Shown: one piece after another, positions 10,901-12,747 of the stretch | Layout: every line of letters starts with the position of its first letter | How positions within the stretch are numbered: position 1 is the stretch's first letter | From: Rhodobacteraceae bacterium CG17_big_fil_post_rev_8_21_14_2_50_65_11 | GTDB lineage: Bacteria > Pseudomonadota > Alphaproteobacteria > Rhodobacterales > Rhodobacteraceae | Direction: 5' to 3' | DNA: 47,639 nucleotides | NCBI GenBank assembly: GCA_002783145.1 | Contig: PFEX01000137.1 | Location: forward strand, 1-47,639 | Program-made: the position numbers and the translations under genes | Notes under the pieces: generated by a model | Database searches by the model: none | Seen by the model: the letters and a program-made list of their open reading frames with translations, nothing else | What the model was told of the DNA's origin: nothing

Positions 10901-12472
10901 TCAGCTCATATCCTTGTAGGACACTTCCGGCATGTCGCCGCCGGAGCCGAGCTTTTCGTGCCGCACGATCAGCCGGTTGAGCGCGTTGACATAGGCCTTG
11001 ACGCTGGCGACCACGGTGTCGGTATCGGCGGACTGGCCGGTGGTGATCTTGCCGTCCTCCTCGATGCGGACGGTCACCGTGGCTTGTGCATCCATGCCCT
11101 CGGTCACCGCGCTGACCTGGTAGAGTTGCAGCACCGCGTCGTTGGGGTAAAGCGCCTTCACGGCGTTGAAGGCGGCATCGACAGGCCCGTCGCCCTGCGC
11201 CGTGGCCTGCTTGTCGGCGTCGCCCACGCGCAGCATGATATCGGCCGATTGCGGCGCCTCGGTGCCGCAGATCACGCGCAGGAATTTCAGTTCCAGGTGA
11301 TCCTCGGTGCCGGCGGCGGCGGCATCCGTCACCAGCGCGATCAGGTCGTCGTCGAACACCTCCTTCTTGCGGTCGGCAAGCGCCTTGAACCGCACGAAGA
11401 GATCATTGAGCTGGTTGTCGATCATGTCGAAGCCGAGATCCTTCAGCTTCGCGCGCAACGCCGCGCGGCCTGAATGCTTGCCGAGTGGCAGCGAGGTTCC
11501 GGCCAGCCCGATATCCTCGGGGCGCATGATCTCGAACGTATCCGACGATTTCAGCATACCGTCCTGATGGATGCCGGATTCGTGGGCAAAGGCGTTCTTG
11601 CCGACGATGGCCTTGTTGGGCTGTACCACGAAGCCCGAGACTGTGCTGACCCGGCGCGAGATATGCATGATCCTGGTGCTGTCGATACCGGTCGTCCACG
11701 GCATGATGTCGTTGCGCGTCTTCAGCGCCATGACGACCTCTTCCAGCGCGGTGTTGCCGGCACGTTCGCCGAGACCGTTCACGGTGCATTCGATCTGCCG
11801 CGCGCCGCCGGCGACGGCCGCCAGCGCGTTCGCCGTCGCCATGCCAAGGTCATTGTGGCAGTGGGTGGCAAAGATCACGTCCTCGCCGCCGTCGCATTCC
11901 GCGATCAGGCGCCGGATCAGGTCGGCGGATTCCACGGGCGCAGTGTAACCTACGGTATCGGGGATGTTGATCGTGGTGGCACCGGCCTTGATGGCAATCT
12001 CGACCGTGCGCTTGAGGAAATCCCACTCCGTCCGCGTCGCGTCCATCGGCGACCATTGAACGTCGTCGCAGAGGTTGCGCGCGTGGGTCACGGTTTCATG
12101 AATGCGCTCGGCCATCTCGTCCATAGTCAGGTTCGGGATCGCGCGGTGCTGCGGCGAGGTGCCGATGAAGGTGTGGATGCGCGGGGAGTTGGCGTGCTTC
12201 ACCGCCTCCCAGCAGCGGTCGATATCCTTGGGGCGGGCGCGGGCGAGGCCGCAGATCGTGGCCGACTTGGCCAGCTTGGCGATCTCGGCCACGGCGTTGA
12301 AATCGCCTTCCGAGGCGATGGGAAAGCCGGCTTCGATGATGTCGACGCCCATCTCGTCAAGCAGGCTGGCAATCTCCAGCTTCTCGGAATGGCTCATCGT
12401 TGCGCCGGGGCTTTGTTCGCCGTCGCGCAAGGTCGTGTCGAAGATCAACACGCGGTCTTGGTCGGTGGTCAT
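10901..12472 (-). CDS. leuA: 2-isopropylmalate synthase
   Basis: VLIFDTTLRDGEQSPGATM; HCHNDLGMATANALAA; NGLGERAGN. Start taken at MTTDQDRV. Confidence 0.96.
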   Translation of the reverse strand: MTTDQDRVLIFDTTLRDGEQSPGATMSHSEKLEIASLLDEMGVDIIEAGFPIASEGDFNAVAEIAKLAKSATICGLARARPKDIDRCWEAVKHANSPRIHTFIGTSPQHRAIPNLTMDEMAERIHETVTHARNLCDDVQWSPMDATRTEWDFLKRTVEIAIKAGATTINIPDTVGYTAPVESADLIRRLIAECDGGEDVIFATHCHNDLGMATANALAAVAGGARQIECTVNGLGERAGNTALEEVVMALKTRNDIMPWTTGIDSTRIMHISRRVSTVSGFVVQPNKAIVGKNAFAHESGIHQDGMLKSSDTFEIMRPEDIGLAGTSLPLGKHSGRAALRAKLKDLGFDMIDNQLNDLFVRFKALADRKKEVFDDDLIALVTDAAAAGTEDHLELKFLRVICGTEAPQSADIMLRVGDADKQATAQGDGPVDAAFNAVKALYPNDAVLQLYQVSAVTEGMDAQATVTVRIEEDGKITTGQSADTDTVVASVKAYVNALNRLIVRHEKLGSGGDMPEVSYKDMS

Positions 12473-12532
12473 GGGGTCTGTCCTTGGTCTTAGCCTGATG
12501 GTCTGTGTGGCGATCTCGGCGCTGGTTCCCCC

Positions 12533-12562
12533 CTGAGCGGTCGCGCCGAAAGGCACGCTCAG
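12533..12562 (-). promoter_or_regulatory. Hairpin overlapping the stop codon of the leader ORF upstream of leuA (candidate attenuator element)
   Basis: Minus strand CTGAGCG-T-GCC-TTTC-GGC-GCGAC-CGCTCAG; the outer 7-bp arms are perfectly complementary. Confidence 0.5.
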
Positions 12563-12645
12563 AGGCGGCTAAGGAGAAGAGGCGCGCACAGGGCTAGACC
12601 GCCCTTGCGGGTGGTCAGGATCGGGATATGGCCGTGCGTCGTCAT
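12559..12645 (-). CDS. Putative leucine-rich leader peptide for leuA (MTTHGHIPILTTRKGGLALCAPLLLSRL)
   Basis: 28-codon ORF upstream of leuA on the same strand, absent from the ORF track. 7 of 28 residues are Leu, including LLL, and one uses CTA. Confidence 0.6.
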   Translation of the reverse strand: MTTHGHIPILTTRKGGLALCAPLLLSRL

Positions 12646-12747
12646 GGCGGGGACTATGTCGCGCGTTCGGCGCGTTGAAAACCCCTTTTTTCGTGATTGC
12701 CCCGGTCGGGCTTTGACCAGAGCGCTGGCTGGGCTAGGTCATCGGCC

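Follow-up and report, generated by a model that had tools for sequence, protein, structure and literature searches.

The closest described counterpart of the element reported here is the LEU element of Actinobacteria (Seliverstov et al. 2005, PMC1262725). In this leader of leuA a run of Leu codons is accompanied by a pseudoknot, and the Leu codons form a base stem with the Shine-Dalgarno sequence. Its mechanism has been an open question since 2005, with the authors leaning toward a protein restricted to Actinobacteria. As cited in PMC1262725, the effects of Leu-codon mutations in leuA of S. coelicolor were not those of classical attenuation. The leuA leader of S. lividans (MRFGLLLLSCRGEGL) was described as leaderless and without terminator (PMC8079986). 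In the literature searched (largely without subscription papers), reports of LEU elements concern Actinobacteria only, and an earlier alphaproteobacterial description may exist.

The locus studied here lies in a window of 47,639 nt, i.e. the whole stretch of DNA that was analysed, from Rhodobacteraceae bacterium CG17_big_fil_post_rev_8_21_14_2_50_65_11 (contig PFEX01000137.1). It resembles the enterobacterial leu attenuator (leuL; Rfam Leu_leader, RF00512) in that leuA is preceded by a short leader peptide containing Leu codons. However, the intrinsic terminator or U-tract of that system is absent here and, unlike there, the Leu codons themselves form a long-range stem. A search of the window against Rfam including Leu_leader gave no match even at E = 1, and at the gathering and E-value thresholds nothing was found in the actinobacterial or alphaproteobacterial loci either. 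A preliminary description of the locus had drawn on attenuation by a Leu-codon leader as in enterobacteria; the Leu-codon leader upstream of leuA is indeed present, but the closest model is the actinobacterial LEU element. From the same order, the uORFC-8-2 motif upstream of cysS in Rhodobacterales is also a ribosome-mediated leader with amino-acid codons, but it senses cysteine and has an intrinsic terminator at its end (Brewer et al. 2021, PMC8632094). That paper makes no mention of leuA.

Leader, stem, pseudoknot and base stem upstream of leuA

The features of the locus are listed in the table. A 28-codon, Leu-rich ORF upstream of leuA had been noticed before and was found as described, with four of its seven Leu within the last six codons. 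The single CTA codon which had also been pointed out exists (position 17), but it is located outside the conserved run, and many relatives lack it. Leaders of the family end in a Leu run, mostly as LLLLSRL followed by the stop codon, and in the leaders of 30 relatives Leu accounts for 54% of the last ten residues vs 9% of the rest of the peptide. The stop codon follows the Leu run by 9 nt in all 52 family leaders measured. Within the run, CUU makes up 57% of the Leu codons compared to 18% in the genes of the window, and CUG 11% compared to 52%. This preference of CUU over CUG is what one would expect of a strand bound to match the Shine-Dalgarno region.

Features of the leuA leader region (positions in the window)
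Feature	Position	Strand	Remarks or basis
Probable leader promoter (TTTTCA 12681-12676, 17 nt spacer, CATAGT 12658-12653)	12653-12681	minus	positional conservation
Leader ORF MTTHGHIPILTTRKGGLALCAPLLLSRL, followed by stop	12559-12645	minus	28 codons, unannotated; ending kept in relatives
Leu run CTT CTC CTT of the leader	12579-12571	minus	
Base stem, 5' strand CUUAGCC	12567-12573	minus	final Leu codon of the run together with the Ser codon and base 1 of the Arg codon
Stem 1, 5' arm CCUCUGAGCG	12556-12565	minus	holds the leader stop codon; begins 5 nt past the end of the Leu run
Pseudoknot, 5' strand CGGCGC (hairpin loop)	12543-12548	minus	swap test; alternative partner is the upstream GUGCC
Stem 1, 3' arm CGCUCAGGGG	12530-12539	minus	
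Pseudoknot, 3' strand GCGCCG	12517-12522	minus	swap test
Base stem, 3' strand GGCUAAG	12489-12495	minus	4-10 nt upstream of the leuA Shine-Dalgarno sequence
leuA Shine-Dalgarno sequence AAGGA	12481-12485	minus	sequence
leuA, 2-isopropylmalate synthase, TIGR00973 (leuA_bact)	10901-12472	minus	putative controlled gene; ATG at 12472

Of the 57 distinct family loci, 49 have a -10-like hexamer that ends 7-8 nt 5' of the start codon of the leader. Because of this position the leader is probably leaderless: transcription is expected to start at the leader ATG or directly beside it, and translation would begin right at the 5' end, as in the trpL leader of S. meliloti according to PMC10117765. A strict consensus promoter scan reported no promoter upstream of the leader, so that the leaderless reading is based on the conserved spacing only. 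For leuA itself, a start at GTG 12556 (551-aa ORF) was put aside, since relatives align from the ATG at 12472 and since the distance between leader stop and leuA varies among them with no common frame. A sequence scan for a terminator-like site or a U-tract between leader and leuA found none, which fits the earlier suggestion that the output does not depend on an intrinsic terminator.

The hairpin CTGAGCG/CGCTCAG over the leader stop (12533-12562) had been recognized correctly; it extends to the 10 bp of stem 1 (12565-12556 with 12539-12530), and the inner GCC-TTTC-GGC pairing is possible as well. Stem 1 is nearly invariant in the family, with about 98.7-98.8% of cells paired. Across 39 elements of many alphaproteobacterial families it covaries: seven of the ten pairs have changes on both sides, and none of 500 shuffles scored as high. 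The preliminary description missed the -10-like box, the pseudoknot of the loop and the pairing of the Leu codons beside the leuA Shine-Dalgarno sequence.

Both long-range pairings were examined by a swap test, in which pairing partners were exchanged between the 57 distinct family loci in 5000 permutations and own energies were compared to swapped ones. The swaps are uncorrected for relatedness, a bias shared by the control segment pairs. The pseudoknot gave -16.6 kcal/mol for own vs -15.0 kcal/mol for swapped partners (z = -6.0, 0/5000) and the base stem -11.8 vs -10.0 kcal/mol (z = -7.1, 0/5000), whereas five control segment pairs had z values between -1.8 and +1.2. Variants of the pseudoknot are GGGUGC/GCACCC (loci L028 and L029) and UGGCGCG/CGCGCCA (L019 and L022). 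The 3' partner of the base stem adjoins the Shine-Dalgarno sequence in the genus of the window and includes it in others, e.g. loci L007, L009, L023 and L055. In the window, 3 more base pairs are predicted between the Shine-Dalgarno sequence and the upstream CTT Leu codon. The loop segment GUGCC (12552-12556) is almost invariant in the family, though mostly unpaired in the pseudoknot form. It could pair with GGCGC as an alternative hairpin, a pairing for which covariation offers no measure because GUGCC hardly varies.

Folding of the leader as a single sequence was no better than that of shuffles (z = -0.57). Chance is rejected because of conservation and the swap tests, not because of folding energy; the leader and its overlapping hairpin are real and far from chance. 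It had been proposed that the position of the ribosome decides whether the hairpin forms. The overlap with the stop codon stands, but the hairpin is probably not the switch by itself, because the Leu codons are a strand of a long-range stem and the loop takes part in a pseudoknot.

Distribution of the element

Of the 61 genomes taken as relatives for a blastn search with the 251 nt upstream of leuA, 30 had a match; the conserved core is at about 12517-12579. With a covariance model of this core (R1), a single copy each was detected in 385 of the 398 genomes of the family, which is Rhodobacterales-like; 13 family genomes have no R1 match, e.g. G028, G073 and G186. An automatic parser was applied to 64 family loci, of which 61 (57 distinct) passed and three failed the strict patterns. 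In all 61 parsed loci (57 distinct) the element is located directly upstream of leuA. The nearest named match is a plasmid copy of Phaeobacter inhibens, also upstream of leuA. On this 18-kb plasmid (NZ_CP081282.1, L162, 3501-5199), a complete leuA is directly preceded by the element, whose leader is unannotated. Conserved Leu codons and a covarying stem had been named as what to look for in relatives, and both are kept, with stem 1 covarying across Alphaproteobacteria. Judged from the sequences, the region is a real, unannotated and widely conserved putative control element, missing from Rfam.

In other alphaproteobacterial families, a short ORF with a Leu run was found in 33 of 60 leuA upstream regions, compared to 7 in antisense and 6.8 in shuffles, and R1 matches the majority of these 60 regions at E 0.1 or better. 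A broader model (R2) had a match in 73 of 241 genomes of the class. Outside the family, 50 of 51 R2 matches checked are directly upstream of leuA, and the remaining one is in a genome with the leuA position unlisted; 16 of the 50 are in genomes unused for the model, and 86 genomes have this leuA type. A phylum-wide search placed 58 of 59 matches in Alphaproteobacteria. The one match outside the class was weak and short and was taken as chance. By sequence comparison, the arrangement thus appears conserved in almost all Rhodobacteraceae-like genomes and common in other Alphaproteobacteria.

For 30 elements of other alphaproteobacterial families, the swap test supported the base stem (7/5000), whereas the pseudoknot was not significant (498/5000). 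A coupled change of the base stem pairs CUUCGA with UCGAAGGA. Many leaders outside the family (loci L076, L105, L112, L120, L130 and others) have Leu-Arg-Leu (CUU CGA CUU) in place of the straight Leu run, matching UCGAAGGA downstream. Upstream of the yeast-type leuA of other Alphaproteobacteria, Leu-run ORFs occur in 11 of 30 loci, several of them about 300 nt upstream. Examples are the short ORFs of L136, L147, L149 and L151, such as MMKIDRLSGLLLRLTSPVL followed by a stop codon, 120-330 nt upstream of the gene. Such ORFs are possibly separate attenuators.

Proposed mechanism and alternatives

The region is probably a leucine-responsive, ribosome-operated leader of leuA which works like the actinobacterial LEU element. 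The transcript would begin with the leader ATG or immediately beside it, and ribosomes would translate the leader. The Leu run CUU CUC CUU ends 5 nt before the 10-bp stem with the stop codon, and the pseudoknot between loop and GCGCC would fold the RNA in such a way that the Leu codons are turned toward the leuA start region. With plentiful Leu-tRNA, the ribosome would finish and leave the leader, CUUAGCC would pair with GGCUAAG and initiation at leuA would fall. When Leu-tRNA is short, the ribosome would sit on the Leu codons, the base stem would be blocked and leuA would be translated. In the proposed mechanism the codons play a double role as sensor and blocking strand, of which the locus would be a clear example. 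Comparison of the sequences shows the leader, stem 1, the pseudoknot and the base stem as well as how far they are conserved; we infer the leaderless start, the sensing of leucine and an output at the level of translation, not of the elongation of transcripts. The earlier reading of Leu-leader control at leuA is supported at this level.

Conservation, covariation and the swap tests are the strongest points of the proposal; its weakest point is that the function is deduced from anatomy. Masking of the Leu run eased opening of the Shine-Dalgarno sequence in 38 of 54 leaders (p = 0.0003, folding without pseudoknots). The effect had the expected direction but was modest, with an opening cost falling from 2.7 to 1.7 kcal/mol and the probability of being unpaired rising from 0.52 to 0.68, again without pseudoknots. 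This modest gain, the position of the partner beside rather than on the Shine-Dalgarno sequence in the genus of the window, the mutation data from S. coelicolor and the pseudoknot result outside the family count against the ribosome-operated model. The conserved unpaired GUGCC is left unexplained by it.

The same leader, Leu run and stop-overlapping stem would also serve a ribosome-mediated leucine attenuation with transcriptional output, in which folding of the leader makes RNA polymerase pause or gives Rho access to the RNA, such that few transcripts reach leuA in plentiful leucine. Rho-dependent attenuation without a U-tract has precedent in other leaders. It has been suggested for cys operons (PMC1262725). 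However, the lack of a terminator-like site and a conserved long-range stem which ends at the leuA start region, and which termination further upstream would not need, make this output unlikely.

A protein-binding site formed by the pseudoknot was the actinobacterial proposal of 2005; in this reading the Leu run would be secondary. That unpaired loop bases are strongly conserved in the family agrees with it, as do the S. coelicolor mutations and the helicase proposed by the authors for Actinobacteria (PMC1262725). Yet the proposed protein was described as confined to Actinobacteria (PMC1262725), while the element occurs in Alphaproteobacteria; the idea is weakened because the same layout is found there on a different leuA type. 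Since Leu run, 5-nt distance to the stem and stop frame are all kept, too, a protein-bound pseudoknot seems quite improbable as the main principle. Conservation for another cause, e.g. a site in the DNA or the stability of the mRNA in general, combined with a Leu-rich frame arising by chance, would fit the high nucleotide identity within the family. It is nevertheless hardly credible in view of the covarying pairs, the persistence of frame and Leu run in distant families and the position of nearly all checked R2 matches upstream of leuA. The ribosome-operated leader with translational output is the preferred reading.

Comparison with the actinobacterial LEU element

The LEU element was described from another phylum, and its stem sequences differ from those of the present element. 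The controlled LeuA is of type TIGR00973 here and of type TIGR00970/PRK03739 in Actinobacteria. The stop codon is located inside the 5' arm, 9 nt past the run, in the present element, whereas it is beyond the 5' arm, mostly at 18 nt, in Actinobacteria. The element is short, and convergence would be easy, because Leu codons such as CUCCUUA resemble the 16S anti-Shine-Dalgarno sequence and could have arisen twice; given this and the different LeuA types, the resemblance to the LEU element may reflect convergence as well as homology. We tentatively suggest, with rather more doubt than confidence, that LEU elements are one class of RNA switches common to Alphaproteobacteria and Actinobacteria, which would control two types of isopropylmalate synthase and in which the regulatory Leu codons would be the anti-Shine-Dalgarno strand, such that a stalled ribosome directly frees the next start. 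Alphaproteobacteria offer easily manipulated hosts for testing control of the LEU type.

A short ORF with a Leu run was found upstream of leuA in 77 of 80 actinobacterial loci, and swap tests in Actinobacteria support both pairings (3/5000 and 1/5000). When a model of 33 actinobacterial elements (R3) was applied to 52 alphaproteobacterial loci, its top matches all fell on the element and in register, with E values of 0.0002-0.06 under a rough calibration. The reverse search was weaker, as the alphaproteobacterial model reached E 0.0015-0.003 for Micromonospora only. Both elements have a leader ORF with a Leu run upstream of leuA, and the run is separated from the stem by 5 nt here and in most actinobacterial LEU elements. 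In the Rhodobacteraceae-like family as in Actinobacteria, a pseudoknot follows right after the Leu run, inside the base stem, and the base stem joins the Leu codons to the leuA start region; an intrinsic terminator is absent from both. By analogy, the present element, which has these structural features of a LEU element, most likely works like one.
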